NCBI RefSeq assembly: GCF_011082725.1
Contig: NZ_CP049715.1
Span: 1 to 64,000 of the forward strand
Length of the DNA stretch: 64,000 bases
Source of the DNA: Apibacter sp. B3706
Lineage (GTDB): Bacteria > Bacteroidota > Bacteroidia > Flavobacteriales > Weeksellaceae
Direction: 5' to 3'
Every line of letters begins with the position of its first letter. The stretch's first letter is position 1. Shown here piece by piece: positions 1 through 16,467 of this stretch. Below the pieces are notes generated by a model, which saw only the letters and a list, made by a program, of their open reading frames with translations, made no database searches and was not told the origin of the DNA. A program made the translations under genes and the position numbers.

Positions 1-795
1 AGGATTAGCTAACTTTTAGGAGGAACAGAGAAAAAAGAAGTAAAGAGTGAAGGAATTGATTTGGTTTTTGTAATAGATGTCTCCAAATCCATGAATGCAG
101 AAGATATAGCTCCTTCAAGATTGGAAAAAGCCAAAAAATTGTTTGTGATTTTTTATCTAAACTAGGGGGGATCGAGTAGGAATAGTAGCATTTGCAGGAA
201 ATTCCTATCCCATTATGCCTTTATCCAGTGATTATAGCGTTGCTCAGCTCTACTTAAATGGTATTGATACTAATCTTATTACAACCCAGGGAACAAATAT
301 AGCAGATGCCGTTTTAAAAAGCTTCCACTCTTTTATCTCAAACCTCCAATACATCCAAAGTAATTTTTATAATATCTGATGGAGAAGCCCACGAAGGAGA
401 CGTTAAACGGGCAATAATACGGCAAAGAAAAATAAAATTTCCATATTTTCCGTAGGGGTAGGTACAACTCAAGGAGCCCCCATTCCTTTATTTTATGAAG
501 GTAATATTCAGAATACAAAAAAGATGATAATGGGGATATTGTATTAACGAAATTGCAAGAAAGTACATTAAAACAATTGGCAGCAGGAACCGGAGGTAAA
601 TATTTCTATGGCGGTCATAATACAAAAGATGTTGTTAATAAGCTATTTAAATCCATGTCCACCTTAGACAAAACTAACCAATCCGTAAGTATTAATTACG
701 ACACAAAACAGTATTTTCATTATTTTATAGGAGCCGCATTTTTAGTTATTTTTATTGTTTCTTTAACAAATTATAGGAGAGATTTTATGATTTAA
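1..795 (+). pseudogene. batB: BatB-like VWA-domain protein, 5'-partial with multiple frame breaks
   Basis: Stitching the frames together gives the C-terminal part of a BatB-type von Willebrand A protein of the Bacteroides aerotolerance family. The MIDAS motif DVSKSM lies near 79-96, followed by a GDRVGIVAFAGNSYPIMPL stretch, an IISDGEAHEGDV stretch, and from 553 an uninterrupted tail with one transmembrane helix ending at the stop 793-795. The 5' end is outside the window. Frame changes are needed near 10-18, 139-147, 165-170 (a run of six G), 323-338, 411-416 and 503-511. Most look like one missing base, while the encoded protein is otherwise conserved with few odd residues. That pattern fits unpolished sequence at a contig end better than real decay. 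The gene precedes batC by 18 bases, as expected for a bat operon. Family assignment is firm; pseudogene status is not. Confidence 0.75.
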
Positions 796-801
796 TCTTA
801 G

Positions 802-809
802 TATCTTTG
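802..809 (+). promoter_or_regulatory. TAnnTTTG match immediately before batC
   Basis: TATCTTTG ends 4 bases before the batC ATG at 814. This matches the Bacteroidota -7 consensus, but it is so close that transcription would begin at or just inside the start codon. batC probably reads through from batB. The match may be chance or a leaderless internal start. Confidence 0.2.
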
Positions 810-813
810 TTAA

Positions 814-1640
814 ATGTATTTAAAAAATAAATATTTAGTTATAATTTTTATTTCACTAATAAATATTTTTCAAGCTCAGACGAAAGCATCAAGAAAGCAT
901 TTATTAGAGGGTAATAATAAATATTTGGCTGAATCTTATAAAGATGCAGCAGCTAATTATTTATATTCGATACAAGACGGAGAAGATTCATATAGATCTA
1001 ATTACAATTTAGGAAATGCCATGTATAAACTAAAAAAATATGATGACGCATTGATTCAATATGAAAAATCACTCCAATTGGCAGCAAATCAGTCGGAAAA
1101 AGCCAATGCTTTATTCAATATGGGAAACAGCTATTTTCAAAAAGGAGAATATGAAAGAGCAGCCGAAGCGTTTAAAAATACTTTGAAATTAAATCCGAAA
1201 GATGATAAGGCGAGGTATAATTATACGATGTCAAAACAAAAAGTAAAAGAAGCTCAACAAAAACATGAGGAGCAAAATTCCAAAGATCAAGATAAGAACC
1301 AAGGAGATAAAGAAGATAAAAAGGATAATTCTCAGCAAAATGGAAATGATCTACTGAATTCATCCAATGCTAAAGAAGATAAAACTGATAATTCAACCGA
1401 TAAAAAAGATAAAGATAATTCTTTAAATAATAAAGAAACACAGCCCAATAAAAATGAAAAAAATTCAATAAACAATCAGAAATCACAAGCTGATACAAAT
1501 AATGCTAATCTGTCAGATGCCTCTAATCAACATTATGAAAATATTTTAGGAGCAATGGAAGAACAAGAAAAAGAGCGCATCAAAAGATTATTAATAAAAG
1601 AGCTAATTCAAATCAAGGACAAAGTAGCAAAGATTGGTGA
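814..1640 (+). CDS. batC: BatC-like TPR protein (apparent frameshift near the 3' end)
   Basis: Secreted tetratricopeptide-repeat protein of the Bat operon, thought to act in the periplasm with BatB/BatD. Residues 1-21 form a signal peptide ending FQA. TPR-type helices follow at about 30-140, then a long Lys/Asn/Asp/Gln-rich linker (about 150-245) and a basic C-terminal helix. Read without correction the frame runs to 1734, 100 bases into batD, with an unconvincing tail. Moving to the -1 frame around 1595-1605 gives a tail ending SSKDW and a TGA at 1638-1640, a typical BatC ending. That stop shares its A with the batD ATG (TGATG). I therefore give the corrected end. The cause is most likely a missing base; a programmed -1 shift is less likely because there is no good slippery heptamer. 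Confidence 0.75.
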
Positions 1641-3466
1641 TGAAGAAATATGTAATACTCTTTTTACTTATCTTTTTAAGCGGAATTTGGGCAAAAGCTC
1701 AGGTTTCTTTTCAACTCATACCCCAAAAAAATGAGGTAGGAGTCAATGAGCCTGTACGCCTACAATTTTTACTTTCCATTAAAAATGAAGAAATTAAAAA
1801 TATGGGGCGTTTAAAATTACCTTCTTTTTCTAATACGCAGGTAATTGGCAGGCAGGTAATTCAGAACCAAGGCTTTGATGATGAAGGGAACAGTGTTTTC
1901 GAATATGGAATTGAAATTATATTAAGAGCTGTTAAAAAAGTGAATATCCGTATAGATGCCGCACAAATAACTGTTAATAATAGGAAATATGAGACCAAGC
2001 CCACCGTAATAACTGTGTCAGGAAATTCTAGTGGAAGTGAAGATGACACAGCTTTTAATTCAAAATTGGGTGAAGTATTTCTTAAATTTAAAGTATCAGA
2101 AAAGAATCCGTATCAAAATGAAGGGGTAGTTGCTAATTTAAAATTTTATACTCGAAGGATTGAATTACTCAATAGTATGACCAATCTGGTTTCTCCGGAT
2201 TGGCAGGGGGTATTTGTACAGCCGGTAAAAGAAAGAAGCCATACCTACGAACAGGAAATAATTAATGGAGAATCCTATTTTTCAAGAGTTATAGGGACTT
2301 ATGTTATGTTTCCAACTCAATCGGGAACCCTTGTCATAAATCCGTTTACCTTAACATTAACAATTCCGGATGGATTTTTTGATGAACACGATTTAAATAT
2401 AAAATCTGCACCGGTTACATTACAAGTTAAGAGACTTCCTGATAATGCTCCAAAAGATTTTCATGGGCTGGTAGGTCAATTTACTATGAGAGCTTCAGCA
2501 AACAAAAAAGATTTACAAGCAGAAGAAGCAGTAACTGTAAATGTAGAAATAAATGGTAAGGGAAATCTTACGCTTCTTAAATCCCCCGGACTTCTAATGT
2601 CTGATGATATAGAACAATATACCCCTAAAAGTAAATTTGATTCAGAGGCAACCGTACAAGGGATAAAAGGAAAATTAAATACATCTACCATATTAGTTCC
2701 TCAAAAAGAAGGTACTTACAATATAAATGTAGAATCAATTAGCTATTTTGATCCCATAGATGAGAAATATAAAAGTTTAATTGTACAACCAATTCCCATT
2801 AAAGTATCAGGAAATACTTTAGCAAAAAATGATGAAAAAACCGGTACAGTCATCAAAAAGGACACAAGTGATGTCAACCAATATGATCCCAAATCTGCTA
2901 TTAAAAATAAGGTCACCGAAGTATTGAAAAGAGACCATAACAGCTTAGGAAAAATATTGATAATTATATTATTTACAGGAGTTATATCAATTATAGTTAT
3001 TCTGGTAATTTGTATATTAATAATAAAAAGAAATAAAAAAAATAAGCTAAAAAAACAAGAAGAAGAACAATCGTTTGATTCATTAAATAAAGAAAAAAAA
3101 TTTACATCACGTAATTTACCTTATACAAGCTCTAACATTACTAATGATTTTAAAAATGAATTATCACAATTAAATCATTTAGCACAAGAAGGAACAGATA
3201 AAAAAGAATTTTACATTCTTTTGGAAAAGACTTTGATAGAAGCAGCAAAACAATATTTAAATTTAGAAAAAGATAGTTTTGTTTCTACTTCAGACTTAGA
3301 AGATGAATTAGCTCAGAGATTAGGAGATGAAATTTCAGAAGAATGGAAGAATATGGTTATTCAATCTCAAATTGAACGATATTCAAGCGTAACAGAACAA
3401 GAATCCCTAGAATCTGTGTATACAAAAGCTAAAGACTTAATTAAGAAATTAAATATAAAAAAATAG
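1640..3466 (+). CDS. batD: BatD-like protein
   Basis: Large periplasmic protein anchored in the inner membrane, last gene of the Bat cluster; the family is linked to aerotolerance and envelope stress in Bacteroides and Leptospira, with no known enzymatic activity. Signal peptide residues 1-22 (cleavage after AKA), an Ig-like beta-rich periplasmic region to about 430, one transmembrane helix at about 436-463 and a charged cytoplasmic tail. I choose the ATG at 1640 over the in-frame TTG at 1634, because it gives MKKY followed directly by the hydrophobic core and makes the stop/start overlap TGATG with corrected batC. About 608 residues, normal for BatD. Confidence 0.85.
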   Translation: MKKYVILFLLIFLSGIWAKAQVSFQLIPQKNEVGVNEPVRLQFLLSIKNEEIKNMGRLKLPSFSNTQVIGRQVIQNQGFDDEGNSVFEYGIEIILRAVKKVNIRIDAAQITVNNRKYETKPTVITVSGNSSGSEDDTAFNSKLGEVFLKFKVSEKNPYQNEGVVANLKFYTRRIELLNSMTNLVSPDWQGVFVQPVKERSHTYEQEIINGESYFSRVIGTYVMFPTQSGTLVINPFTLTLTIPDGFFDEHDLNIKSAPVTLQVKRLPDNAPKDFHGLVGQFTMRASANKKDLQAEEAVTVNVEINGKGNLTLLKSPGLLMSDDIEQYTPKSKFDSEATVQGIKGKLNTSTILVPQKEGTYNINVESISYFDPIDEKYKSLIVQPIPIKVSGNTLAKNDEKTGTVIKKDTSDVNQYDPKSAIKNKVTEVLKRDHNSLGKILIIILFTGVISIIVILVICILIIKRNKKNKLKKQEEEQSFDSLNKEKKFTSRNLPYTSSNITNDFKNELSQLNHLAQEGTDKKEFYILLEKTLIEAAKQYLNLEKDSFVSTSDLEDELAQRLGDEISEEWKNMVIQSQIERYSSVTEQESLESVYTKAKDLIKKLNIKK

Positions 3467-3470
3467 AGCG

Positions 3471-3487
3471 CCTAAAAACTTTTTAGG
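3471..3487 (+). terminator. Short hairpin after batD
   Basis: CCTAAAAA and TTTTTAGG form a perfect 8-bp inverted repeat around a single C, 5 bases after the batD stop. There is no clean T-tract after it, only AAATTTAATT, so its strength as a terminator is doubtful. Confidence 0.4.
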
Positions 3488-3527
3488 AAATTTAATTAAC
3501 AAAATTCTTTAAAAATATAATTTTACT

Positions 3528-4121
3528 ATGCCTTTACATTTTTCTATCCAGGAAATAGCAAGTTGTTTTATGGTTTTATTTGCCATTATAGATATTTTTG
3601 GCAGTGTTCCCGTAATAGTAAGCATAAAAAGTAAAGTCGGTTATCTTCAGGCTAAAAAAACAACATTGGTAGCTTGTGCAATCATGATATCCTTTTTGTT
3701 CGTTGGTGATAAATTACTAAAACTTATAGGAATTGATGTATATTCATTTGCTGTAGCAGGTGCTTTAGTTTTATTTGTTATTGCACTGGAAATGATTTTG
3801 GGCATTGAAATTAATAAAATCGATGAGCCGCATTCTGCTTCCATAATTCCTTTAGCATTTCCATTAATAGCAGGAGCAGGAGCTTTAACCGCCGTATTGG
3901 CTTTAAAAGCAGAATATCATACGGAAAATATAATCATAGCCATACTCCTTAATATGGTAGTCGTATATTTAGTATTAAGATATTCGGGTAAATTAGAACA
4001 AATTTTAGGACAAGGAGTAATTTCAATTATGAAAAAAGTTTTCGGTATTATCTTATTAGCTATTTCCATTAAGTTATTTACTGCAAACATAACCTCTTTG
4101 TTAGAAAAAGTATCTCCTTAA
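3528..4121 (+). CDS. MarC family (UPF0056) integral membrane protein
   Basis: Polytopic inner-membrane protein of about six hydrophobic helices, 197 residues, the usual size for MarC/UPF0056. The family motif region is visible: FAIIDIFGSVP near residue 20, PLAFPLIAGAGALT near 107, and a repeated hydrophobic core. Despite the name, MarC is not established as an antibiotic-resistance factor, and the transported substrate is unknown. It starts 61 bases after batD on the same strand; it may be read through from bat or have its own promoter. No catalytic residues are expected. Confidence 0.85.
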   Translation: MPLHFSIQEIASCFMVLFAIIDIFGSVPVIVSIKSKVGYLQAKKTTLVACAIMISFLFVGDKLLKLIGIDVYSFAVAGALVLFVIALEMILGIEINKIDEPHSASIIPLAFPLIAGAGALTAVLALKAEYHTENIIIAILLNMVVVYLVLRYSGKLEQILGQGVISIMKKVFGIILLAISIKLFTANITSLLEKVSP

Positions 4122-4140
4122 AAAATAAGATCTCATTTTG

Positions 4141-4148
4141 TATATTTG
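4141..4148 (+). promoter_or_regulatory. Promoter -7 element TATATTTG
   Basis: Exact TAnnTTTG match ending 13 bases before the ATG at 4162, giving a predicted start of transcription about 5-8 bases downstream. It argues that the upstream in-frame TTG at 4138 is not the translation start, because that TTG lies before the promoter element. Confidence 0.5.
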
Positions 4149-4161
4149 TAAAAATATAAAG

Positions 4162-4356
4162 ATGAAATATTTTTTAAATCTTACTCTTTTAGCTTTTGTC
4201 CTCTTAATAATTTTTAATGCAACGCGAATTAATTATAGTTACGGGATAACTACCGATCCAAACGATAAATATTTTTATTCAATTTTATTTGCTATTGTAG
4301 GCATTTTAATAGTATTCATAATAAAAGGACTAAAAAAATTATCCCAAACCAAATAA
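4162..4356 (+). CDS. Small two-helix membrane protein, unknown function
   Basis: A 64-residue protein with two hydrophobic segments (about residues 4-20 and 37-55), separated by a short hydrophilic loop (TDPNDKY), and a basic C-terminus. I do not recognise a family. The start is taken at the ATG at 4162 because a -7 promoter element lies at 4141-4148. The stop is one base from the 3' end of the convergent rnpA gene. Confidence 0.6.
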   Translation: MKYFLNLTLLAFVLLIIFNATRINYSYGITTDPNDKYFYSILFAIVGILIVFIIKGLKKLSQTK

Positions 4357-4357
4357 A

Positions 4358-4729
4358 TTAATCTGAAAATTTAATTTTTTCAAGCAATTTCAAATAACAG
4401 CTCTCCAATTCTTTATAGGCAGGTATTTTTTTGTCTTTACCATTATAGACAATCATTAGTAAATGAGATGTTGTAAAAGTGTTGTTTAGCTCATTTTTAT
4501 GCAAGCGGAAACATTCACGCAAAAGTCTTTTTACCCGATTTCTATCCACTGCATGTTTAAAAATTTTTTTAGAAACGGACACTCCAACCTTATGGGTTTC
4601 CAAAAATTCAGGAGAAGGACAATAAACCATAGCTAAAGGATATTTTTTATTCCACGTCCCTTTTTCAAACAAATATTTAATAAGCTTATATCCTTTTAAA
4701 TGTTCTTCTTTCGTATACTTTTGGTTCAT
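4358..4729 (-). CDS. rnpA: Ribonuclease P protein component
   Basis: Protein subunit of RNase P, which binds the catalytic RNA and helps it remove 5' leaders from pre-tRNAs. 123 residues, normal length. The family signature RNRVKRLLRE is at about residues 63-72, preceded by VGVSVSKKIFKHAVDRN. Cytoplasmic and basic. It is not next to rpmH/dnaA here. It converges with the small membrane gene, leaving a one-base gap. Confidence 0.95.
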   Translation of the reverse strand: MNQKYTKEEHLKGYKLIKYLFEKGTWNKKYPLAMVYCPSPEFLETHKVGVSVSKKIFKHAVDRNRVKRLLRECFRLHKNELNNTFTTSHLLMIVYNGKDKKIPAYKELESCYLKLLEKIKFSD

Positions 4730-4827
4730 ATAATATGCATTTCATCACAATACCATTCCCAAAGATGATATTATTGAGACTTTTGATTACATAAAATTTC
4801 AAGAAATGTTTTGTCAAAGATAGGGCA

Positions 4828-4859
4828 TTTGTAATAATCATAAACATTAATTAATTTTG
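4828..4859 (+). promoter_or_regulatory. Bacteroidota-type promoter (TTTG N20 TAATTTTG)
   Basis: TTTG at 4828-4831 and TAATTTTG at 4852-4859 are separated by 20 bases, matching the -33/-7 architecture of the Bacteroidota housekeeping sigma factor. Transcription would start about 4865, some 20 bases upstream of the bacilliredoxin ATG at 4886. It is the best two-box match noted in the window. Confidence 0.65.
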
Positions 4860-4885
4860 TATAACAATAAAAACTAATATAAAAT

Positions 4886-5299
4886 ATGTATCCAGAAGAA
4901 ATGGTTGCGCCAATGAAAGCGCAATTAACAAATAAAGGTTTTGAAGATTTAAACACATCAGAAAAAGTAGAAGAAGCATTAAAAAGACCCGGTACAACCT
5001 TATTAATAATTAATTCCGTTTGTGGATGTGCTGCCGGAGGAGCTCGTCCCGGAGTAATATTATCTGTAGAAGGCGAAGGAAAAAAACCGGATCATTTAAC
5101 TACTTCATTTGCAGGATTTGATGTGGATGCAGTTAAAACCGCTAGAGAACATCTTGCCCCTTTTCCACCTTCATCTCCGTCCATAGCACTTTTTAAAGAT
5201 GGAGAATTGGTTCATTTTCTAGAAAGACATCATATTGAAGGTCATTCTCCTGAAATAATTGCTGAAAATTTAAAACAAGCATACGCTGAATTTTGCTAA
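4886..5299 (+). CDS. BrxA/BrxB family bacilliredoxin
   Basis: Thioredoxin-fold thiol-disulfide protein of the YphP/YqiW (DUF1094) family, which removes bacillithiol from mixed disulfides on proteins. 137 residues. The characteristic CGC redox motif sits in VCGCAAGGARPG at about residues 45-56. A later LERHHIEG stretch is also typical of the family. It points to bacillithiol use in this host, relevant to the decayed YfiT-type gene at 62509-62788. It is followed after one base by the DUF59 gene, so the two are probably co-transcribed. Confidence 0.9.
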   Translation: MYPEEMVAPMKAQLTNKGFEDLNTSEKVEEALKRPGTTLLIINSVCGCAAGGARPGVILSVEGEGKKPDHLTTSFAGFDVDAVKTAREHLAPFPPSSPSIALFKDGELVHFLERHHIEGHSPEIIAENLKQAYAEFC

Positions 5300-5300
5300 C

Positions 5301-5627
5301 ATGTCTTTAAACGAAGAACAAATACAATCTCTGTCAGAAAAAATCGTTGAAAAATTAAAAACGGTTTACGATCCTGAAATTCCCGTGGATGTTTATGAAC
5401 TAGGATTGATTTATGATATTCAGATTAGTACAGAAGGAGACGTGGAAATATTGATGACCTTGACAACCCCTAATTGTCCCGTGGCAGAAACATTACCCAT
5501 GGAAGTAGAAGAAAAAATCAGTGCTATAGATGAAGTAAAAGAAGTAAATGTAAAAATTACTTTCGAACCAACTTGGGATAAAGATATGATGAGCGAAGAA
5601 GCTAAATTTAATTTAGGACTTTTATAG
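5301..5627 (+). CDS. DUF59/MIP18 family iron-sulfur assembly protein (SufT-like)
   Basis: Small cytoplasmic protein of 108 residues with the MIP18 signature: YDPEIPVDVYELGLIYDI at about 23-40 and the metal-site region TTPNCPVAETLPMEVE at about 54-69. The family acts in maturation of iron-sulfur proteins, often within suf operons; here it sits directly behind a bacilliredoxin, linking Fe-S assembly with thiol redox control. No other suf genes are nearby. Confidence 0.85.
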   Translation: MSLNEEQIQSLSEKIVEKLKTVYDPEIPVDVYELGLIYDIQISTEGDVEILMTLTTPNCPVAETLPMEVEEKISAIDEVKEVNVKITFEPTWDKDMMSEEAKFNLGLL

Positions 5628-5677
5628 CATCATAAGACAAAAGCTAAGTAACTAAACTCTAGTAAGTAAATGATAGT

Positions 5678-5714
5678 AAAGGACAGATCAAATTATATTA
5701 ATCTGTCCTTTTTT
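5678..5714 (+). terminator. Intrinsic terminator after the bacilliredoxin-DUF59 pair
   Basis: AAAGGACAGAT (5678-5688) pairs perfectly with ATCTGTCCTTT (5701-5711) and is followed by a T-run to 5714. It lies 50 bases after the DUF59 stop. Confidence 0.85.
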
Positions 5715-5864
5715 CCTAAATTTAAAAAGTAGTGGAATTGAATAAATTTAAGTGATAATAGAAAAGTGAAATTTGAGATTATGTTGAAATTGAAGCAAAT
5801 GGTTAAAAAATTTATACAACTTTAACTCAATAAATACTATCATCTCAATTCACCGGTAAATAAT

Positions 5865-5872
5865 TACATTTG
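5865..5872 (+). promoter_or_regulatory. Promoter -7 element TACATTTG for rsmE
   Basis: Exact TAnnTTTG match ending 20 bases before the rsmE ATG. No clear TTTG box at the -33 spacing. Confidence 0.45.
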
Positions 5873-5892
5873 TTAAATATAAGATTGATCTC

Positions 5893-6594
5893 ATGAGATT
5901 ATTTATAGGAGAGATATATCCGAATGAAGTGCAACTAAGGGAAGAAGAAGAACACCATATAGTAAGAGTGTTGCGATTGAAAGAAGGAGATATGGTCTAT
6001 GTGACCAATGGAAAAGGAGCATTAATAAAAGGACAATTACAAATAACAGGAAAGAAAGTTAAGGTTCAAATAATTGAAACTTTTCCCCATTCAAATAGTG
6101 GGCAAAATGGATTACATATTGCTATTGCTCCAACTAAAAATATAGACAGATTTGAGTTTTTTGTAGAAAAAGCAGTTGAATTAGGAGTATCTAAAATTAC
6201 TCCACTTTTATGTACTAATTCAGAGAGAAAGGTTTTAAATACGGAAAAAATCAAGAAACAAATTGAAACCGCCTGTAAACAATCTTTGAGAATAAATTTT
6301 CCTGAACTCTATCCATTAACTCCTTTGAAGGATTTTATACAATCTTCGAAAACAAAATTATACCTTACCCATTGTTATAAAGAATATGAGAAGATCACTT
6401 TAAACGAAACGTTAAACAGAGAAAAAGAAATAACCTTAATGGTTGGACCGGAAGGAGATTTTTCTAAAAAAGAAGTAGAAGAGCTTTATTCTTTAGGCTC
6501 TATAGGGGTTAGTTTAGGAGAGAATCGTTTGAGGACAGAAACTGCCGGAATTTTCATTGCTTCCAGTTATTATTTTTTTCACAACCAACCATAA
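5893..6594 (+). CDS. rsmE: 16S rRNA (uracil1498-N3)-methyltransferase
   Basis: SPOUT-family methyltransferase that methylates U1498 of 16S rRNA using S-adenosylmethionine. 233 residues. An N-terminal PUA-like domain (EEHHIVRVLRLKEGD near 19-33) is followed by the trefoil-knot domain with MVGPEGDFSKKEVEEL (about 182-197) and LGENRLRTETAGIF (about 207-220), the SAM-binding signatures. Monocistronic, between a terminator and the convergent waaA. Confidence 0.95.
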   Translation: MRLFIGEIYPNEVQLREEEEHHIVRVLRLKEGDMVYVTNGKGALIKGQLQITGKKVKVQIIETFPHSNSGQNGLHIAIAPTKNIDRFEFFVEKAVELGVSKITPLLCTNSERKVLNTEKIKKQIETACKQSLRINFPELYPLTPLKDFIQSSKTKLYLTHCYKEYEKITLNETLNREKEITLMVGPEGDFSKKEVEELYSLGSIGVSLGENRLRTETAGIFIASSYYFFHNQP

Positions 6595-6684
6595 ACAGAA
6601 TCATTAAAATTTATATGATCAATTTTTTATTGACTATAATTTTAAATAAAATGTTATGACCTATAAAATTAAGTTTTAAGTCAA

Positions 6685-7929
6685 TTATTGTAAGTGAACC
6701 AAATAATCAACAATAATTTGAACCGAATCAGGTTTACTAAAGACATATTCGCGAGCTCTTTCACCCATTCTATATCTTTTATTTGTATCTGTAAGTAATT
6801 CAACGAGTACTTCATTAAATTCATTTTGATTGTGAATTACTTTTGCTCCTCCATACTGGATTAATTCTACGGCCTCGATAAATTTATCATAAATGGGTCC
6901 GAATAAAACTGGAGAAGCAAAAACGGCCGGCTCCAATACGTTGTGTACCCCTTCTTTACCAAATGCACCTCCCACATAAGAAATATCGGCATAGGAATAA
7001 ACTTTCGTCAATATACCAACCGTATCTAAAATTAATACTTGATAGTCTGCAGGATGGGTGTGACTTAATTCTGAAAATAATACCGTTTTAGGTAATAACT
7101 CCGCTTTTAATTTCTGAAAATATTCATGATTCATATTATGTGGAGCTATAAGTATCTTACAATTCATAAAGAAAGAAGAATTAATAAAGTTTTTTAACAG
7201 CGTATCATCTTCTTTCCACGTACTTCCTGCAACAATTAAGGTATTGGTTCCTTTAAACAAAGACAACCAGCTTAAGTGGTTATTCTGTTTACTTAACATT
7301 TTAACTCTGTCAAAACGTGTATCCCCTGAAACCGTTACTTGTTGAATGCCGATGGAATTCAATAATTTTTTTGAATTTTCATCCTGTACAAAAAAATGAG
7401 TTACTTTCTTTAAAATCGATACAAACCATTTTCCGTTAGGCTTAAAATATATCTGGTCTTGACGAAAAATACTTGAGATAAATAAAGTAGGTATTTTTTT
7501 TGCCGCAAGTGCTTGCAATATATGATACCAAAAATCATATTTTACAAAAATAGCATAGCTTGGATGTAAGAGTTCAATTAACTGATGGGCATTTGATGGA
7601 GTATCTAAGGGAATGTAAAATATAAGATCTGCTATACAATTATTTTTAACCACTTCATATCCGGAAGGAGAAAAAAAACTAAGAGCAAATTTATGTTTTG
7701 GAAATTTTTTCTTTAAAGCAGTTAACACAGGAAGTCCTTGTTCATATTCACCAAGAGATGATGCATGCATCCAAATCACTTGATCCGTTGGTGAAATTTT
7801 ATTTTGTATTTCCGAGAAGACATGAGTCCTTCCTTGTACCCAAAGTCTTGCTTTAGGATGAAATAAAGAAGCAATCTTCATTCCTGCTCCCATAAGTTTA
7901 ATGCCGAAAGAATATAAAAATGAATTCAA
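6685..7929 (-). CDS. waaA: 3-deoxy-D-manno-octulosonic acid transferase
   Basis: Glycosyltransferase (KdtA/WaaA) that adds Kdo to lipid A precursor at the inner-membrane cytoplasmic face. 414 residues. N-terminal membrane-anchor region, then HASSLGEYEQG at about 55-65, which carries the conserved Glu. A GDTRFDR motif follows near 202, and the C-terminal sugar-nucleotide site VGGAFGKEGVHNVLEPA lies near 315-331. It lies 163 bases downstream of proS on the same strand, with a terminator between them. Confidence 0.93.
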   Translation of the reverse strand: MNSFLYSFGIKLMGAGMKIASLFHPKARLWVQGRTHVFSEIQNKISPTDQVIWMHASSLGEYEQGLPVLTALKKKFPKHKFALSFFSPSGYEVVKNNCIADLIFYIPLDTPSNAHQLIELLHPSYAIFVKYDFWYHILQALAAKKIPTLFISSIFRQDQIYFKPNGKWFVSILKKVTHFFVQDENSKKLLNSIGIQQVTVSGDTRFDRVKMLSKQNNHLSWLSLFKGTNTLIVAGSTWKEDDTLLKNFINSSFFMNCKILIAPHNMNHEYFQKLKAELLPKTVLFSELSHTHPADYQVLILDTVGILTKVYSYADISYVGGAFGKEGVHNVLEPAVFASPVLFGPIYDKFIEAVELIQYGGAKVIHNQNEFNEVLVELLTDTNKRYRMGERAREYVFSKPDSVQIIVDYLVHLQ

Positions 7930-7988
7930 AATTTATCTGTTACTGTTATTTAAAATTTAACTTTTTTCAAGACTCTAGTTTAAAAAGA

Positions 7989-8013
7989 ATTGCCTTAATT
8001 CAATTAAGGCAAT
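7989..8013 (-). terminator. Terminator after proS
   Basis: ATTGCCTTAATT (7989-8000) and AATTAAGGCAAT (8002-8013) form a perfect 12-bp stem. On the minus strand the hairpin is followed by a T-rich tract (complement of TAAAAAGA), so it ends proS transcription before waaA. There are also Ts on the plus side, so it could work in both directions. Confidence 0.75.
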
Positions 8014-8092
8014 TTTTATTCATATTTGAGTTGAAAAATAAATTAATATTTGGAAATAGTACAAATATCTTTTCGATAAAAAGTACTATTGA

Positions 8093-9565
8093 TTAGTAAG
8101 CTCTCGCAAATAAGACTCTTCTTTTGGAAGGATTCCCTGAATATATACATATTCCCTCTTCCTCTTTAGCATCTAAAGGGATGCAACGAATGGTTGCTTT
8201 CGTTTCAGCTTTTATTTTTTCTTCTACTTCTAACGAACCATCCCAATGAGCAGAAATAAATCCGCCTTTTTCGTCCAATACTTTTTTAAATTCCTCGTAA
8301 GAATTTACTTCGGTAATTAAAGAATCTCTGTGTGATTTCGCTTTATTGAAAATATTTTGTTGAATTTCTTTCAATAAATCTTGAATGTGTTCAGCTAAAC
8401 CATCTACAGAATGTTGATGCTTTTCTAAAGTATCTCTTCGAGCTATTTCAACTTGTTTATTTTCAAGATCCTTAGGGCCAATGGTAACCCGAACCGGTAT
8501 GCCTTTTAACTCATATTCATTAAATTTCCAACCCGGTTTATATTCAGTTCTATCATCAAATTTAACACTAATTCCCAACTTTTTAAGTTGAGAGATAAGT
8601 GTATCTGCTAATTCAGAAATTGCATTTAATTGTTCGTCATTTCTATGAATAGGTACAATAACTACTTGGATTGGAGCTATATTGGGAGGAAGTACTAATC
8701 CATGGTCATCGGAATGAGACATGATTAAAGCTCCGATAAGACGGGTAGATACTCCCCAAGAGGTAGCCCAAACATATTCTTGTTTACCCTCTTTTGATTG
8801 ATATTTCACATCAAATGCTTTGGCAAAATTCTGACCTAAAAAATGAGAAGTTCCGGCTTGTAACGCTTTACCGTCTTGCATCATAGCTTCAATACAATAA
8901 GTTTCTTCAGCACCTGCAAATCTTTCCGCAGGAGATTTTACCCCTTGAATTACAGGAATACCCATAAAGTTTTCAACAAAATCGGTATAAACATTTAACA
9001 TTCTTTCAGCTTCTTCAATAGCCTCTTCTTTGGATACATGGGCAGTGTGTCCTTCTTGCCATAAAAATTCAGCAGTTCTTAAAAACAATCGGGTTCTCAT
9101 TTCCCAACGAACTACATTAGCCCATTGATTAATTAAAATAGGTAAATCCCTATGAGATTTAATCCAGTTTTTATAAGTATTCCAAATTATGGTTTCAGAA
9201 GTTGGCCGAACAATCAATTCTTCCTCCAATTTGGCATCCGGGTCAACAATCACTCCCTTTCCGTCAGGAGAATTTTTTAATCGATAATGAGTAACTACAG
9301 CACATTCTTTGGCAAAACCTTCCACATGATCCGATTCTTTAGACAGATAAGATTTGGGAATAAACAAAGGAAAATAGGCATTTTCATGTCCGGTATCTTT
9401 AAACATCTGATCCAATTGTCGTTGCATTTTTTCCCAAATAGCATATCCATAAGGTTTTATAACCATACATCCTCTAACCCCGGAATTTTCAGCCATATCG
9501 GCTTTTATTACCAGTTCGTTATACCATTTACTGTAATCTTCTTCTCTTGATGTAAGTGTTGCCAT
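8093..9565 (-). CDS. proS: Prolyl-tRNA synthetase (archaeal/eukaryote-like type)
   Basis: Class II aminoacyl-tRNA synthetase that charges tRNA-Pro. 490 residues, the shorter form without the bacterial editing insertion. Class II motif 2 and 3 regions are visible: [23 protein letters not shown] near 122-144, [24 protein letters not shown] near 153-176, and a [11 protein letters not shown] stretch near 239-249. The anticodon-binding domain and the C-terminal zinc-binding-like domain of this type follow, ending in the RAY terminus typical of the archaeal form. Confidence 0.95.
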
Positions 9566-9741
9566 AATGCTTTTCTACTGTTTTTAAACTTTCTGTAATT
9601 ATAACTGTCATAATTCTTAAGATACTTTGTCACATTACTATTGCAGCAAAATAGGTATTTCTTAATTGGTACGACTTTTGCGAATTTAAAATGATTCAAG
9701 AACAAAATTATAATAAATATATAAACTACTAAAAAAATATC

Positions 9742-11112
9742 ATGAAGAATATCAGTTGTAATTTAGGACGAGTTTTCATGAAAGTTGGTACTCTCTTATG
9801 GGTGTCGGTTTTTTTAACATCATGTTATGTCGGCCAATCTTCATATGCCGGTGAGGATAGTGTATATTATTCAAATAAGACTCGAAAAAATAATAAACAA
9901 AAGTCTTATGATTACGTATATGATGAGGGTACAAGCTCATCCAATTCATATTCAGACAGTCAAGTAAGAATAGGTAAAAAATATATTGATCCAAATTCTA
10001 ATGCCAGTGATTTATTATACGATGATGATTATAACAAAAGTGATGCTTCTTCCAATACTGTTTATCGCTACAGTGATGAAATCAATCAATCTTATTCCAA
10101 TAATAATAGCAGAGACGGTTGGGGAGATGATGGCGGAACTGTAGTTAATAATTATTATTACGGAGGTTACAGTCCTTATTATTCCTATTATTGGGGCGCA
10201 CCCTATTGGGGATGGAGAAGTTATTGGAGTCCCTATTATGGATGGAATTGGGGCGTTTCAGTAGGCTGGGGCTGGGGATGGTCCGGTTGGGGATGGGATT
10301 ATCCTTCATATTGGGGTCCATCTTGGGGTTGGAATTATCCGGGTTATTGGAGGCCTCATCACCATTATTGGGATAATGGTTGGTGTTGTTCAAGATATTA
10401 TGCTAATTACGGATCAAGATCTTCTTATTTGAATAGTTCAAGAGGAAACTCATATATTTCAAGATCTTACGGAACGTCTCGTTCAAGACAAATACAAGAC
10501 ATTCAAAGACAAAATAGTAGAAATACCATCATTTCGGGAAGCCGAAGTAATGGGATAAGTAATTCAAGAATCAATAGAGGTTCTACATCTACTATTTCAA
10601 GAAACAATGAAAGTGGAAGAAACGGTTCAATTATAGGCGGCTCAAGAGCTAATGCAGCAGTTGTTACTCCCGAAAATTCAAGAAATAATTCCGGAGCTGT
10701 AATTGGAGGCTCAAGAAATAATACGATAACTAATTCAGAAGGCTCTAGATCCACCGGAGTAATTAGAGGTTCCCGAAATAGTATAGGTACATTGGAAGGA
10801 TCAAGAAATCAAGTGGGGATTGGAAATTCCGGAAACGGAAGAGAATCATCCAATTCAGGAACTATAAGAGGGTCTAGAAACAGTACGGGAATTATAGGTG
10901 GATCCAGAAATTACGAATCAGGTTCTTCTAGAATATCTTCACCAAACTATCAAACACCAAGTTCAAGCAGTCGTGAAAGTTCTCGCGGATCTATAATTGG
11001 AGGAGGTAATCGAGGCTTTGGAGGAGGTTCCATAAGTAGTGGCAGCCGTGGCGGCTTTGGAGGAGGCTCCCTGGGAGGTGGTCGCGGAGGCGTTATAGGT
11101 GGTAGAAGATAA
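9742..11112 (+). CDS. Trp/Tyr/Gly-rich lipoprotein with GSRN-type repeats, unknown function
   Basis: 456 residues. The N-terminus ends in a lipobox LTSC with Cys28, so it is probably a lipoprotein; Met13 at 9778 is an alternative start giving a more standard signal peptide. A Ser/Asp/Asn-rich spacer (about 30-130) leads to a segment (about 132-215) made almost entirely of Trp, Tyr, Gly, Ser and Pro. The rest (about 230-456) is Ser/Arg/Gly/Asn-rich with imperfect tandem units of the form I-(G/R)-G-S-R-N, ending in Gly-rich GFGGGS repeats. No catalytic domain is visible. A FadL-like porin follows after 21 bases, so the pair is probably one operon. A surface or matrix role is only inference. Confidence 0.75.
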   Translation: MKNISCNLGRVFMKVGTLLWVSVFLTSCYVGQSSYAGEDSVYYSNKTRKNNKQKSYDYVYDEGTSSSNSYSDSQVRIGKKYIDPNSNASDLLYDDDYNKSDASSNTVYRYSDEINQSYSNNNSRDGWGDDGGTVVNNYYYGGYSPYYSYYWGAPYWGWRSYWSPYYGWNWGVSVGWGWGWSGWGWDYPSYWGPSWGWNYPGYWRPHHHYWDNGWCCSRYYANYGSRSSYLNSSRGNSYISRSYGTSRSRQIQDIQRQNSRNTIISGSRSNGISNSRINRGSTSTISRNNESGRNGSIIGGSRANAAVVTPENSRNNSGAVIGGSRNNTITNSEGSRSTGVIRGSRNSIGTLEGSRNQVGIGNSGNGRESSNSGTIRGSRNSTGIIGGSRNYESGSSRISSPNYQTPSSSSRESSRGSIIGGGNRGFGGGSISSGSRGGFGGGSLGGGRGGVIGGRR

Positions 11113-11133
11113 TATAATAATATAACTCAAATT

Positions 11134-12570
11134 ATGAACAAGAAATTATTATACGGTTTTATCCTTTCATCCATGGTTTTGATAGGTAAATCACAAACCA
11201 ATAGATTTTATCCCAATGATGTATCTGATGCTTTTAGTATTTTTGGTGATAATTCCAATAATACAACAGGTACTGCTAGATATATAGGTATGGGGGGATC
11301 TATGGGGGCTTTAGGAGGTGATCTTAGTGCCGTAGAAACAAACCCTGCCGGTCTAGGTATTTTTAGAAATTCTGTAGCGAATATTTCAATGAGTATCTTA
11401 TCTAATAAAAATAAAGCTACTATGGGCAACGGAGTAAATTCCAATACCGATACCAATTTTAATGTTCCCGGTGCCGGAGTTGCATTGGCTTTAGGTGATG
11501 AAGCAGACTTATTTAAAGTAAACGTTGGAGTAAACTTTTCTTATCAAAGAGTAGATAACGACGTAAACTTTTCCAGAAATACCAAATTAAATTATTTATA
11601 TCCTAATAAAGATAATGTAGATCAACTTTATGAAATGGTCAATTATGATCAGTATACCAATGGATATAAATCAAAAATGAAATTCAGTTTGGCAACCAAT
11701 TACATGGATAGATTATATTTCGGTATTGGATTAGATTGGCATTATTTAAATATTGATCGCAATTCTGAATATGGTCATAGAAACACAGTAGATGGGGAAT
11801 ATATGAAATTCAATGAGCAATTAACGCCTTATAGTCAAGAAGCCAACGGTTTCGGATTAAATGTGGGGGTAATCGGTAAAATTACACCTGAGATTCGTTT
11901 AGGGGCTGCCTATCATTCTCCTATTTGGTGGTCTGATATGGATGATTACCGATGGATATATGGATACGATGATAAAGGACAATTCGTAGAAGATTATGTT
12001 TATTATGATCATTATAAAAATGTATCTCCCGGAAAATTGGTATTAAGTGGCGCTTTTGCTTCCAATATCGTCGATGATGATAATTCCTTGGCCTTTAATT
12101 TTGATTTTATTAATTACTTTAATAAAGACATGGAATTTAAAGGAGATGTTGACTATAGGTTAAATAATAATTTTGTTAATGACTACGTAAGAAATTCACA
12201 AGAATACCGCGCAGGTATTGAGTACAGGTTTAGAGAACTTAAATTACGCGCCGGTTACGCTTATGCATCTTCTCCTGTAAAAAGTAATTCTATATCAGGA
12301 ATATGGGATACAAACAGTGATCCTGTATTTGTGAAAAATTACTTAGCAGGTGAAAAAAATAAATTGTCTTTTGGAGCCGGATATGATATTGGTCAATTTT
12401 TTGTGGACCTAGGATATCAGTATATTAAAACAGATTATCGCACGACCCTTTCCGGTGACTTTTATACGGTAAGTGGATCCAATCTTGCAATAAGTTTAGA
12501 TAAACCGTATTTAGGAAAAGTTAATAATATCCAAAATAATTTTGTATTAACTTTGGGTATGAGGTTTTAA
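11134..12570 (+). CDS. FadL/OmpP1-type outer-membrane beta-barrel protein
   Basis: 478 residues. A signal peptide (about 1-20) is followed by the conserved N-terminal plug of the OmpP1/FadL/TodX family, in which GTARYIGMGGSMGAL and DLSAVETNPAGLG recur in flavobacterial members (about 46-75). The remainder is alternating beta-strand sequence ending with a terminal aromatic residue (MRF), as expected of an outer-membrane barrel. The family imports long-chain fatty acids or other hydrophobic compounds; the substrate is unknown. It lies 21 bases after the repeat-rich lipoprotein. Confidence 0.85.
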   Translation: MNKKLLYGFILSSMVLIGKSQTNRFYPNDVSDAFSIFGDNSNNTTGTARYIGMGGSMGALGGDLSAVETNPAGLGIFRNSVANISMSILSNKNKATMGNGVNSNTDTNFNVPGAGVALALGDEADLFKVNVGVNFSYQRVDNDVNFSRNTKLNYLYPNKDNVDQLYEMVNYDQYTNGYKSKMKFSLATNYMDRLYFGIGLDWHYLNIDRNSEYGHRNTVDGEYMKFNEQLTPYSQEANGFGLNVGVIGKITPEIRLGAAYHSPIWWSDMDDYRWIYGYDDKGQFVEDYVYYDHYKNVSPGKLVLSGAFASNIVDDDNSLAFNFDFINYFNKDMEFKGDVDYRLNNNFVNDYVRNSQEYRAGIEYRFRELKLRAGYAYASSPVKSNSISGIWDTNSDPVFVKNYLAGEKNKLSFGAGYDIGQFFVDLGYQYIKTDYRTTLSGDFYTVSGSNLAISLDKPYLGKVNNIQNNFVLTLGMRF

Positions 12571-12590
12571 AAATATATTCACAATAAAAA

Positions 12591-12618
12591 ATCCTAACTT
12601 TTGTTAGGATTTTTTTTT
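12591..12618. terminator. Bidirectional terminator between the FadL-like gene and mscL
   Basis: ATCCTAAC (12591-12598) pairs with GTTAGGAT (12603-12610) around TTTT, followed by eight Ts; As precede it, so it also serves the convergent mscL. Confidence 0.85.
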
Positions 12619-13009
12619 ATTTATTTTTGAGTAAATCTCTGATTTCAGTTAATAATTCTTCTTGAGAAGGTGGTTTAGGCGTGTTATCTTGTTCTTTTTT
12701 CTCTTCGTCTTTCTTATTAAGTCTATTGATCACTTTTATCATCATAAATAAACAAAAAGCAATAATTAAAAATGATAGACAAGTGGATAAAAAGTTACCA
12801 TATTTAATAGCTGTTCCCGGAATGGTTAATTTAGCCAAATCGGTCAAATCAGCCATCTTTAATGCAGGAGTGAGAACAAGAGGGGTGATAATATCTTCAA
12901 CTAAAGACGTGATAATCTGGTTAAATGCGCCCCCGATAATTACACCGACAGCCATGTCAACCACATTTCCCCTTAGGGCAAATTCTTTAAATTCTTTTAT
13001 TAAACTCAT
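12617..13009 (-). CDS. mscL: Large-conductance mechanosensitive channel MscL
   Basis: Inner-membrane pentameric channel that opens under hypo-osmotic stress. 130 residues. The N-terminal amphipathic segment and pore helix read EFALRGNVVDMAVGVIIGGA (about 8-27). A second transmembrane helix lies near 70-92 and a Lys/Glu-rich cytoplasmic bundle at the C-terminus, ending LTEIRDLLKNK. A -7 promoter element lies 25 bases upstream. Confidence 0.96.
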   Translation of the reverse strand: MSLIKEFKEFALRGNVVDMAVGVIIGGAFNQIITSLVEDIITPLVLTPALKMADLTDLAKLTIPGTAIKYGNFLSTCLSFLIIAFCLFMMIKVINRLNKKDEEKKEQDNTPKPPSQEELLTEIRDLLKNK

Positions 13010-13033
13010 AAATAATAATTTTAATTATAATTG

Positions 13034-13041
13034 CAAAAATA
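13034..13041 (-). promoter_or_regulatory. Promoter -7 element TATTTTTG for mscL
   Basis: On the minus strand TATTTTTG (plus-strand CAAAAATA) lies 24 bases upstream of the mscL ATG. Confidence 0.4.
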
Positions 13042-13079
13042 AATTAAATTTCAAATTAACATAATATATGCTGATTGGG

Positions 13080-15176
13080 TTAGGTTTCAAATACTATTCC
13101 GAAATTTTCATCAAATAATAAAATACCGTCCCTTTTCTCCTGAGATTCGGGAACTGTAAATCCTTTTATTTTTGTTGTCTTACCTTTACCTATTAGATCG
13201 GATATTTGTTTTAAAGTTAATTTTTTGCCGAATATTTCAAAAGGTATAGTAAAACTGCAATTTTTAAAATCGGAACAGCCGTAAGCAGATTTTCCTTTGA
13301 TCAATTTATGAGTTTTACATTTTGGACAAAATAAATCTTCTACAGGTCGTAGGGGTGTGGTTTGCTTTTTAGATTTTTCGTTTATTTCAGTATTTTTTTT
13401 CTCTTGTATGGATATTCGTCTGTATTGACAGTTTTTAACTTCTTGGGTCAGGTCGGTTACCATTTCGATAAGTTCCTTTTTAAAAAGATCGGAAGAATAT
13501 TCCCCTTTTTCAATGAGTCTGAGTTTTTTTTCCCAGAGACCTGTAAGCTCCACGCTTTTTAAAATTTCGCTTTGTATCGTGTCGATCAGATCCATTCCCG
13601 TTGAGGTGGCATAAATTTTTTTTCTTTTTTTCTCGATATACTTTCTGTGTAGTAAAGTTTCAATAATATTTGCTCGAGTAGAAGGACGTCCAATACCATT
13701 ATCTTTCATTACTTCCCTCATCTCTTCATCATCTACTTGTTTACCGGCGGTTTCCATACTTCTTAATAAAGTAGCCTCGGTGAAATATTTAGGAGGTGTA
13801 GTTTTTCCTTGATGAATGAATGGATCGTGAGGACCGCTTTCTCCAACTTCAAAAACCGGAATTAAATTTTCCTCTTTTTCATTTTTTTTATCTTTTTCAT
13901 AGATGATTCTCCATCCCGGTTCCAAAATTTGTTTACCGCTTGCTTTAAAAGGTACTTCACCAACTTTTGAAGTTACCAAAGTATTGGAAATTTTACATTC
14001 AGGATAAAATACAGCAATAAATCTTCGGGCAACAAGATCATAAATCTTTTTTTCATCAGTCGAGATACCTTCGGGTAAAATATCGGTAGGTATAATAGCA
14101 TGATGATCCGTAACTTTAGTGTCATCGAAAACAGCTTTCGATTTTGGTATCGGATTTTCTAAAAGAGGAGCAATAAGATTTTCATAATATTTCATGCCGG
14201 AAAGAATTCCGTGGATCTTAGGATATAAGTCTTCCGAAAGATAAGTGGTATCAACCCGAGGATAGGTAACGAATTTCTTTTCATAGAGGCTTTGAATGTA
14301 TTTTAAAGTATTATCAGCAGAATAACCGTACTTTTTATTTGCCTTTACTTGTAGAGAAGTCAAATCAAATAAACGAGGATTCTTTTCTTTTCCCTCTTTC
14401 TTCTCGAAAGAAACTATTTCAAAAGGATATTTCTGTAAATATTCTAATCCTTTTTTAGCTCGGTCTTCGCTTTTCAATCGGTCGATATCAGCAATGAATT
14501 CCACATTCTTATATATGGTTTTTAATTCCCAGTATTCCTCAACAACAAAAGAATCAATTTCTTTTTGCCGTTGAACAATCATTGCCAACGTTGGCGTTTG
14601 AACTCTACCGATTGATAATAAGGTTTTATTTATGGCAAATTTTTTAGTAAAAAGTCGGGTAGCATTTATTCCCAAAAGCCAATCACCGATTGCGCGGGCA
14701 CTTCCGGCAGCATATAAATTTTCATATTGGGAAGAATCCTTAAGGTTTTCAAATCCCTCTTTTATAGACTGTTCTGTCAGAGATGATATCCATAATCGTT
14801 TTACGGGAACTTTACATTTTGCTTTAAGCAATACCCACCGTTGGATCAATTCACCTTCCTGTCCGGCATCCCCGCAATTGATTACCTCTTCACATTCAGC
14901 AACCAGGCTTTCTATTACTTTGAATTGTTTTTCCACCCCTTTGTTGGAAATAAGCTTAATCCCAAAATTAGACGGTATGATAGGAAGGTCTTCCAAATAC
15001 CAATACTTCCAGTTCGGGTTATAATCATGAGGCTCTTTTAACGTACACAAATGACCAAAAGTCCAGGTAACTTGATAACCGTTTCCCTGGTAAAATCCGT
15101 CTTTTCTCTCTTTTGCCCCTACAATTTGAGCAATATCTTTAGCGACGCTTGGTTTTTCAGCTATACATACAATCAT
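13080..15176 (-). CDS. topB: Type IA DNA topoisomerase III
   Basis: Relaxes and decatenates DNA through a 5'-phosphotyrosyl intermediate. 698 residues. TOPRIM domain with EKPS (Glu7) and GDAGQEGE (Asp103, Glu107). The catalytic tyrosine is Tyr305 in FVTYPRVDT. GRVQTPTLA lies near 190, and a C-terminal four-cysteine zinc motif (CPKC...CSDFKNC) near 612-636. The usual TOPRIM DxD reads D-A-G, with Gly105 in place of the second Asp. I recall this from other Bacteroidota TopB proteins but cannot check. Such TopB genes are often plasmid- or conjugative-element-borne; none of those genes are near, so this looks chromosomal. Confidence 0.92.
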   Translation of the reverse strand: MIVCIAEKPSVAKDIAQIVGAKERKDGFYQGNGYQVTWTFGHLCTLKEPHDYNPNWKYWYLEDLPIIPSNFGIKLISNKGVEKQFKVIESLVAECEEVINCGDAGQEGELIQRWVLLKAKCKVPVKRLWISSLTEQSIKEGFENLKDSSQYENLYAAGSARAIGDWLLGINATRLFTKKFAINKTLLSIGRVQTPTLAMIVQRQKEIDSFVVEEYWELKTIYKNVEFIADIDRLKSEDRAKKGLEYLQKYPFEIVSFEKKEGKEKNPRLFDLTSLQVKANKKYGYSADNTLKYIQSLYEKKFVTYPRVDTTYLSEDLYPKIHGILSGMKYYENLIAPLLENPIPKSKAVFDDTKVTDHHAIIPTDILPEGISTDEKKIYDLVARRFIAVFYPECKISNTLVTSKVGEVPFKASGKQILEPGWRIIYEKDKKNEKEENLIPVFEVGESGPHDPFIHQGKTTPPKYFTEATLLRSMETAGKQVDDEEMREVMKDNGIGRPSTRANIIETLLHRKYIEKKRKKIYATSTGMDLIDTIQSEILKSVELTGLWEKKLRLIEKGEYSSDLFKKELIEMVTDLTQEVKNCQYRRISIQEKKNTEINEKSKKQTTPLRPVEDLFCPKCKTHKLIKGKSAYGCSDFKNCSFTIPFEIFGKKLTLKQISDLIGKGKTTKIKGFTVPESQEKRDGILLFDENFGIVFET

Positions 15177-15483
15177 TACTGATGGAAGGATTTTTCCTGC
15201 AAAATTGCAATTTTTTAAGTATACTAAGTAATTGATCTTTTAAAAAAGGTCGGATTATCATTTGAATAATTTATGATTTGAAAACAATATTTGACACTAA
15301 TTATAAAAATTAATTCAAAATTTTGTCCAAAGAACAGTTAAAACCGCATTAAATTTATAGTAAAATAAATAAAAGTTTAAAAGATGTTTTTAGCATTAAT
15401 AGTTTAAATTTGTGAAATTATGCTTAATCCAGTATCATTTGTAGCATTGAATCATAATCAGAGAATTTTACAAATAAATCTAT
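15177..15483. other. Intergenic region between divergent topB and the ABC ATPase
   Basis: 307 AT-rich bases. The only signal I can support is the -7 element at 15405-15412 reading toward the ABC gene. A 25-codon open frame at 15420-15497 overlaps the start of the ABC gene but has no recognisable features. Confidence 0.5.
15405..15412 (+). promoter_or_regulatory. Promoter -7 element TAAATTTG
   Basis: Exact TAnnTTTG match, 71 bases upstream of the ABC ATPase ATG at 15484, leaving a leader of roughly 65 bases. Confidence 0.4.
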
Positions 15484-16467
15484 ATGTTAGAAGTTAAGAA
15501 TCTATGTTTTTCATACACTAAAGATAAAAAAATAATTGAATCTCTTTCTTTCTCTTTAAAGCAAGGAAATATGCTGGCACTTGTAGGAGAAAGTGGAAGC
15601 GGTAAAAGTACCATTTTAAAGTTAGTTTATGGTTTGTTGGAATGGGAGAGTGGAGAAGTTATTTATAGAGGAAAAAAATTAGCAGGATTTAAAGGAAATT
15701 TAGTTCCCGGAGAACCTGAATTTAAATATTTGGAACAAGATTTCGGGCTTATGCCCTATGCAACCGTTGGAGAAAATGTGGGTAAATTTCTCTCTAATAT
15801 AGATTTGAAAGAAAAGCAAAACAGAATTATGTTTTTGCTCGATTTAGTGGGCATGGCGGATTATGTAGATGAAAAACCTATCTCACTAAGCGGAGGACAG
15901 AAACAAAGAGTAGCATTGGCGAAAGCCTTAGCTCAAACTCCTTCAGTATTGTTATTAGACGAACCATTTTCTCAAGTCGATACTTTTAAGAAAAATATAC
16001 TAAAAAGAGCTGTTTTTGATTTTGCTAAAGAAAATAATATTTCCATTATTTTAGCCACCCATGAAATAGAAGACGCTTTGGCATATGCAGATGAAATGAT
16101 GATTGTTAAAGAAGGTAAAATTATACGACAAGGCAATCCTCATGATATATATCGAAATCCCGAAAATACCTATGTTGCCAATTTATTTGGTGAAAATACC
16201 ATTTTAAAAAGATCAGATTTTCCGAACCTGTTTGAAGATTTAGTAGAAGATGAAATTCTAATTTATCCACATCAATTTATAATTTCTCAATCGGGTATTC
16301 CTGTAAAAGTAATAAGAAGTTATTTTATGGGCAGTCATTATCTCGTGGAAAGTATTTCAAAATTTAAAAGATTTTGGTTTATTAGTGATGAATCATTACC
16401 GATTGGCAAAGGGTGTTTTTTACAATTTTATGAATATCAGAAATTATTGGATAATAAATTTAATTAA
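15484..16467 (+). CDS. Orphan ABC transporter ATP-binding protein (PotA/FbpC-like)
   Basis: 327 residues. Walker A GESGSGKST at about 35-43, Q-loop near 82, ABC signature LSGGQKQR near 139-146, Walker B VLLLDEPF near 157-164 and switch His in ATHE near 192. About 90 C-terminal residues after the ATPase core resemble a TOBE-type regulatory domain, as in importers of iron, polyamines or molybdate. No permease or binding-protein gene is adjacent: upstream is divergent topB and downstream 250 bases of non-coding DNA. The transporter it energises must be elsewhere, or the protein has another role. Substrate cannot be assigned. Confidence 0.8.
   Translation: MLEVKNLCFSYTKDKKIIESLSFSLKQGNMLALVGESGSGKSTILKLVYGLLEWESGEVIYRGKKLAGFKGNLVPGEPEFKYLEQDFGLMPYATVGENVGKFLSNIDLKEKQNRIMFLLDLVGMADYVDEKPISLSGGQKQRVALAKALAQTPSVLLLDEPFSQVDTFKKNILKRAVFDFAKENNISIILATHEIEDALAYADEMMIVKEGKIIRQGNPHDIYRNPENTYVANLFGENTILKRSDFPNLFEDLVEDEILIYPHQFIISQSGIPVKVIRSYFMGSHYLVESISKFKRFWFISDESLPIGKGCFLQFYEYQKLLDNKFN

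Follow-up and report, generated by a model that had tools for sequence, protein, structure and literature searches.

A low-complexity lipoprotein and a FadL-like outer-membrane barrel form an ancient Bacteroidota gene pair that recurs across the phylum. The lipoprotein looks like an unnamed, probably periplasmic part of the cell envelope of these bacteria; a relative is present in most of the Bacteroidota genomes examined, as a rule encoded beside the same barrel gene. We identified the pair in a window of 64,000 nucleotides from Apibacter sp. B3706 (contig NZ_CP049715.1, positions 1 to 64,000), the whole stretch of DNA that was analysed.

In the window, the lipoprotein is encoded on the forward strand by an intact open reading frame (9742..11112; 456 amino acids plus stop), identified from the ORF list and its translation and matched by homologues at the corresponding position of other genomes. 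The gene for the barrel, which was assigned as FadL/TodX-like by profile and Pfam comparisons, begins 21 bp downstream (11134..12570, forward strand; 478 amino acids). On the other side lies the divergent gene proS (prolyl-tRNA synthetase; 8093..9565, reverse strand), a context conserved within the class, and both promoters presumably lie in the 176 bp between proS and the lipoprotein gene (9566..9741). The product opens with a signal peptide and lipobox (9742..9825, forward strand, as are all parts of this gene) that ends in the lipidated Cys28 (codon 9823-9825). Just after the anchor comes E-D-S-V-Y-Y (9853..9870), the local form of a D-D-x-[IV]-Y-[YF] motif seen in our family alignments A2 and A4, followed by an acidic Ser/Asn/Asp linker defined by composition (residues 44-135; 9871..10146), a W/Y/G block (residues 136-222; 10147..10407) and a cationic Ser/Gly/Arg/Asn tail with an Arg-Arg C-terminus (residues 223-456; 10408..11109). 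An earlier note on this DNA had described a lipoprotein with a segment of about 85 residues rich in W, Y, G, S and P next to a FadL-like porin gene, and these points held: the lipobox reads LTSC28 behind a signal peptide, the block covers 87 residues (77% W/Y/G/S/P, 41% W+Y), and the barrel gene lies where described. The highest density of W+Y+F per 80 residues is 0.42 in the lipoprotein, the next among the 45 ORFs of the window being 0.26. The note had also claimed more than 200 residues of I-G-G-S-R-N units. A tail of 234 residues does exist (79% S/R/G/N/I, net charge +23) and it is enriched in GSR, with 10 GSR[NSAG] units where shuffled tails average 0.86 (at most 6; 0 of 5000 shuffles reached 10) and 7 occurrences of [IVL]xGSR against 0.21, but its regularity had been overstated: the GSR units are irregularly spaced, only 4 fit [IV]xGSRN, and Tandem Repeats Finder detected no tandem array in the tail. 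A second, identical copy of the lipoprotein gene near the end of the contig was considered as a paralogue and rejected as an assembly overlap. The contig ends repeat each other over about 15.8 kb (C1:2281866-2297680, in locus L045, against window 1-15825; 99.78% identity, 1 mismatch, 30 gap openings). This is a circular overlap that was left untrimmed and contains indel errors, and it makes all genes of the first 15.8 kb appear twice.

When the lipoprotein was used directly in protein searches, matches were confined to its genus (9 of 40 genomes, its own included; 1 of 32 genera), and the barrel found matches in 37 of the 40, again counting its own genome. Upstream of the barrel gene, an ORF of the same build was present in 35 of 36 other genomes from the genus, family and order, and in the 36th (G011) the lipoprotein gene lies on another contig. 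A barrel orthologue was found in most Bacteroidia genomes sampled, a profile matching 82 of 99 genomes from the order and 106 of 119 from the class (the window's genome counted in each); in a draw from the phylum it matched 72 of 99 genomes at E <= 1e-10 (own genome included), some of these matches probably being paralogues. We then compared 60 further loci, of which 10 came from the order and 50 from the class, the latter mostly a single locus for each family. The lipoprotein gene lies directly upstream of the barrel gene in 56 of them; of the four exceptions, L100 and L141 stop at a contig end, and the genomes of the other two (L122 and L126; G159 and G201) carry the lipoprotein elsewhere. 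Divergent proS accompanies the pair in 51 of the 60 loci and was not found in 9. Outside the class, 11 of 12 barrel loci encode a similarly built lipoprotein, in most cases one that begins C-Y-T-Q/E/K (L168, which had no candidate, was excluded from the phylum statistics, hence 11/12); at three of the 11, a gap of 200-750 bp separates its end from the barrel ORF, and proS was not found beside the pair in the 12 loci. Six loci outside the class (L162, L164, L167, L169, L170 and L173) also have a third gene, of about 260-290 amino acids, upstream of the lipoprotein gene, its product showing a conserved stretch around D-x-P-T-A-G.

Both genes are retained even where they are unlinked (G011, G159, G201 and G234). 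In family f58 (L157, L159), the lipoprotein gene still adjoins proS and it is the barrel gene that has been relocated, by about 12 kb in G201. A profile search of 22 barrel-less genomes gave no convincing case of the lipoprotein without the barrel: of its four raw matches, two are so close to the end of a contig that the barrel gene would be cut off, and two are short proteins that share the N-terminal motif only. Family f27 encodes short lipoproteins (L154:4780-5331 and L155:3360-3962) with an anchor-proximal Y-S-D-G-F-Y and neither aromatic block nor basic tail, possibly a stripped-down relative. The lipoprotein profile matched 11 of 14 barrel-bearing genomes, four of the 11 being members of the profile itself; because it missed the lipoprotein in the other three, the co-occurrence is approximate, and because many of the barrel-less genomes are very small or incomplete, it backs the pairing only moderately. 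Shared regulation could be the cause of the linkage.

Since the lipoprotein candidates had been picked partly by composition, the picking was tested with four criteria: an aromatic fraction of at least 0.30 in an 80-mer, a net basic last 150 residues, R or K among the last four residues, and a tail of at least 60% S/G/N/P/Q/R/T. Of the lipoproteins in the 60-locus set, 52 of 56 passed all four, as did 31 of 34 from the order set and 9 of 11 from the phylum set; among the other ORFs of at least 150 amino acids in those 60 loci, the count was 0 of 164. The aromatic block occurs in all three family sets. Charge is segregated throughout, the first 100 residues after the anchor being net negative in 99 of 101 members and the last 150 net positive in all 101, and 82 of the 101 end in R or K. 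As called, the proteins are 263 to 661 amino acids long. A scripted rule detected a lipobox in 89 of the 101 members and ten have a plain signal peptide instead; two of the 12 that fail the rule do so solely through a start called too late. The family build thus begins with a signal peptide, either with a lipobox or plain, and continues through an acidic part and an aromatic block to a tail that is cationic and of low complexity; within the class, the acidic part holds a D-D-x-Y-Y motif. In A4, an alignment of 50 selected members (the window's, 3 from the first order set, 2 from the 10 further order loci and 44 of 46 class-set lipoproteins), D39 and Y42 (window numbering) are invariant besides Met1, and Cys28 is conserved in at least 90%; alignment A2 omits L047 and L072, with an unresolved N-terminus, and L051, which has no adjacent lipoprotein. 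Outside the window's branch, the A4 consensus and motif listing reveal a core of Y-Y-D-Y-x-Y-x-x-R-I-R-R-F and N-S-x-D-x-N-S-x-Y-Y-G-P-R; by the pattern used, 26 of 56 members are of the R-I-R-R-F type, and the window protein lacks the core. A profile of A4 recovered members outside its build, for example in G156 (E 8.6e-60), G206 (2.3e-71) and G077 (3.4e-38).

The family appears to have escaped existing databases. None of the 50 members matched Pfam at E 0.001, and NCBIfam gave only two unrelated weak matches, each to a single member. Searched against the PDB, the lipoprotein profile gave only weak matches to ribosomal proteins (best E 0.0024), which we took as composition matches and rejected. 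We recognised no description of this lipoprotein in open-licence PubMed Central text, the literature covered. The family databases missed the pair because the lipoprotein is low-complexity and, outside short motifs, fast-diverging, and for the same reason a plain similarity search ends at the genus.

Within Apibacter, constraint is unevenly spread over the protein. Compared with Apibacter mensalis (L013), the closest named relative (barrel identity 93%), dN/dS was 0.02 in the W/Y/G block, 0.04 in the barrel, 0.16 in the tail and 0.35 in the N-terminal part, the block being 97% identical. Against a second relative (L067), with dS near or above 1, the values were 0.08, 0.05, 0.22 and 0.22 respectively, so that the block did not fall below the barrel in this comparison. 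Averaged over nine Apibacter sequences, identity to the window protein was 0.71 in the block and 0.43 in the mid-tail. The W/Y/G block is therefore the most constrained part of the lipoprotein within the genus. The tail can expand by repeat duplication, since in L067, from an uncultured Apibacter relative, it contains 5.7 copies of a 90-bp unit (96% match; L067:4609-5122), a recent expansion. The variation in the tail that the earlier note had raised is thus seen between species, total length ranging from 263 to 508 amino acids in the Flavobacteriales set. A conserved length and sequence with a known folded domain, which that note had named as speaking against its reading, were absent, length and sequence being variable and the protein having no known domain. 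With the block under strong constraint and the tail drifting, the block evolves as though tied to a specific partner or shape, and the tail as a spacer would.

Turning to location, surface lipoproteins of Bacteroidota are described as carrying acidic residues directly after the cysteine (PMC5080379; PMC12578637), and we scored two or more acidic residues in the six after the cysteine as an export signal. Such a signal was present in 27 of 29 SusD-like controls, most of them from one genome, G026 (L198 and L201 lacked it, and L221 was unreadable), and in 0 of the 89 lipobox-bearing members of the family; the hexamer after Cys28 of the window protein, YVGQSS, has no acidic residue. Together with the members that have plain signal peptides, this points most simply to a periplasmic protein that is usually tied to the outer membrane, and the lipoprotein probably sits on the periplasmic face of that membrane. 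The test yields a location prediction, and a missing signal would be compatible with another route outward.

The downstream barrel appears, from profile comparisons, to belong to the FadL/OmpP1/TodX family. The window's barrel itself falls just below the Pfam cut-off for Toluene_X (E 2e-6; 26.8 bits against 29.7), and 16 of 35 members of the barrel family match PF03349 at E 0.001. TbuX is the best solved relative of a 35-sequence barrel profile (E 2.6e-14), which also matches a FadL paralogue, CymD and TodX, and PorV weakly; the barrel is thereby related to channels for hydrocarbons and fatty acids. A structure prediction from three barrel sequences reached a mean pLDDT of 24. The window's genome also encodes a separate classical FadL (L081).

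We tentatively favour, with slightly less than even confidence, a reading of the Apibacter lipoprotein as a periplasm-facing, partly disordered partner of the conserved FadL-like barrel. Lipidated on the periplasmic face of the outer membrane, it would use the motif near its anchor and its aromatic block to dock at or inside the barrel's periplasmic end, and its flexible cationic tail would extend into the periplasm to touch polyanions, for instance peptidoglycan or lipid head groups. In this way it might gate, cap or supply the barrel, most likely for hydrophobic molecules crossing the outer membrane, the kind of transport carried out by characterised FadL relatives. A bolder extension strikes us as rather unlikely. 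In it, the two genes would encode a so far overlooked core component of the Bacteroidota outer membrane that dates from close to the root of the phylum. The barrel would be a conduit dedicated to lipids, to hydrophobic metabolites or perhaps to lipoproteins in transit to the surface, and the lipoprotein would act as a disordered periplasmic wick, its aromatic block taking up cargo or closing off the barrel and its arginine tail linking the conduit to peptidoglycan or the inner membrane.

Alternatively, the lipoprotein could act independently of the barrel as an envelope tether or spacer, with its lipid in the outer membrane and its disordered cationic tail gripping peptidoglycan or the surface of the inner membrane. 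The predicted periplasmic location, the 234-residue cationic tail of the window protein and the generality of charge segregation in the family are all consistent with this, but some members have no lipid anchor, the linkage to one barrel has lasted, and the strictly conserved part is the aromatic block, not the tail; we consider a tether unlikely, if still worth weighing. The earlier note had instead likened the composition to that of sticky, matrix or phase-separating proteins, which would make this a protein exposed at the cell surface, its aromatic and arginine residues serving as stickers. The composition would suit such a role, with a block that is 41% W+Y and a tail of Arg, Ser, Gly and Asn, as would the variable tail length and the 90-bp repeat expansion in one relative. 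The surface or matrix side of this idea was not borne out, and we think the whole improbable: the export signal is absent from all 89 lipobox-bearing members but present in 27 of 29 controls, an ordinary signal peptide replaces the lipobox in ten others, and the protein is conserved across the phylum beside a single barrel. The strong sequence-level constraint on the block further argues against stickiness by composition alone, a dN/dS of 0.02 implying that its exact sequence matters, at least within the genus.

Two further alternatives concern the barrel. Were it a type IX secretion shuttle of the PorV/PorQ type, with the lipoprotein as its accessory, the weak PorV_fam matches in 11 of 35 barrels (best 8.5e-11) and the presence of a PorV structure among the weak PDB matches would be explained; this is nonetheless very doubtful, as the window's barrel scores 23 bits against a PorV_fam (NF033709) cut-off of 90, a separate PorV-like gene (L089) exists in the same genome, and the best solved relative is TbuX, not PorV. 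A reading of the barrel as BamG, which would make the lipoprotein a subunit so far missed in the BAM complex of Bacteroidota, is scarcely tenable and, for the identity with BamG, largely refuted: BamG is a FadL-family barrel across Bacteroidota (PMC12611786), and the window-type barrel is likewise FadL-like and present in most genomes of the class, but the barrel profile matched no chain of 9N2D even at E 10, although 9N2D was in the searched structure set, the chain 9n2d_B ('Bam G') is matched by a different G026 gene (E 1e-200), NCBIfam BamG (NF053685) matches only 2 of 35 barrels, the window's not among them, and the account of the F. johnsoniae complex that was consulted names no such lipoprotein (PMC12611786).

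If lipoprotein and barrel do work together, as the partner reading proposes, the outer membrane of Bacteroidota gains an unnamed component, and a low-complexity protein whose aromatic part is strictly constrained while its tail is free to vary becomes available as a natural case. Genes kept adjacent across a whole phylum usually do something basic, and Bacteroidota are abundant in the human gut. In this light the locus is more interesting than the earlier note had stated, a fast-diverging low-complexity protein having been held in one place across the phylum.

Among known systems, the FadL/TodX/TbuX channels (PF03349) align with the downstream barrel (TbuX E 2.6e-14), although the window's own barrel stays below the Pfam cut-off. 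To our knowledge, no lipoprotein partner of such a build has been described for classical FadL. The BamG-BamH pair (PDB 9N2D) likewise joins a FadL-family barrel to a lipoprotein, the lipidated tail of BamH running along the barrel (PMC12611786). Our barrel, however, is not BamG, and BamH is a folded surface lipoprotein, whereas the window lipoprotein is low-complexity and has no surface signal; moreover, judged by locus number, bamG and bamH lie apart in F. johnsoniae (Fjoh_1412, Fjoh_0823), unlike the pair in the window. Fjoh_4941/Fjoh_4940 is another case of a FadL-family barrel gene adjoining a lipoprotein gene (PMC12045153). In the window's genome, the classical FadL gene adjoins a gene for a 471-residue lipoprotein (L081:48-2727), an arrangement that resembles this F. 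johnsoniae pair (PMC12045153). This locus, at C1:1439111, looks like the equivalent of Fjoh_4941/Fjoh_4940; it is separate from the one described here, and its 471-residue lipoprotein has no low-complexity character. Finally, BamP, a BAM subunit of Flavobacteriaceae, differs in having folded end domains and in binding BamA, but with its loop inside the BamA barrel it offers a precedent for a flexible periplasmic segment entering an outer-membrane barrel (PMC12611786).
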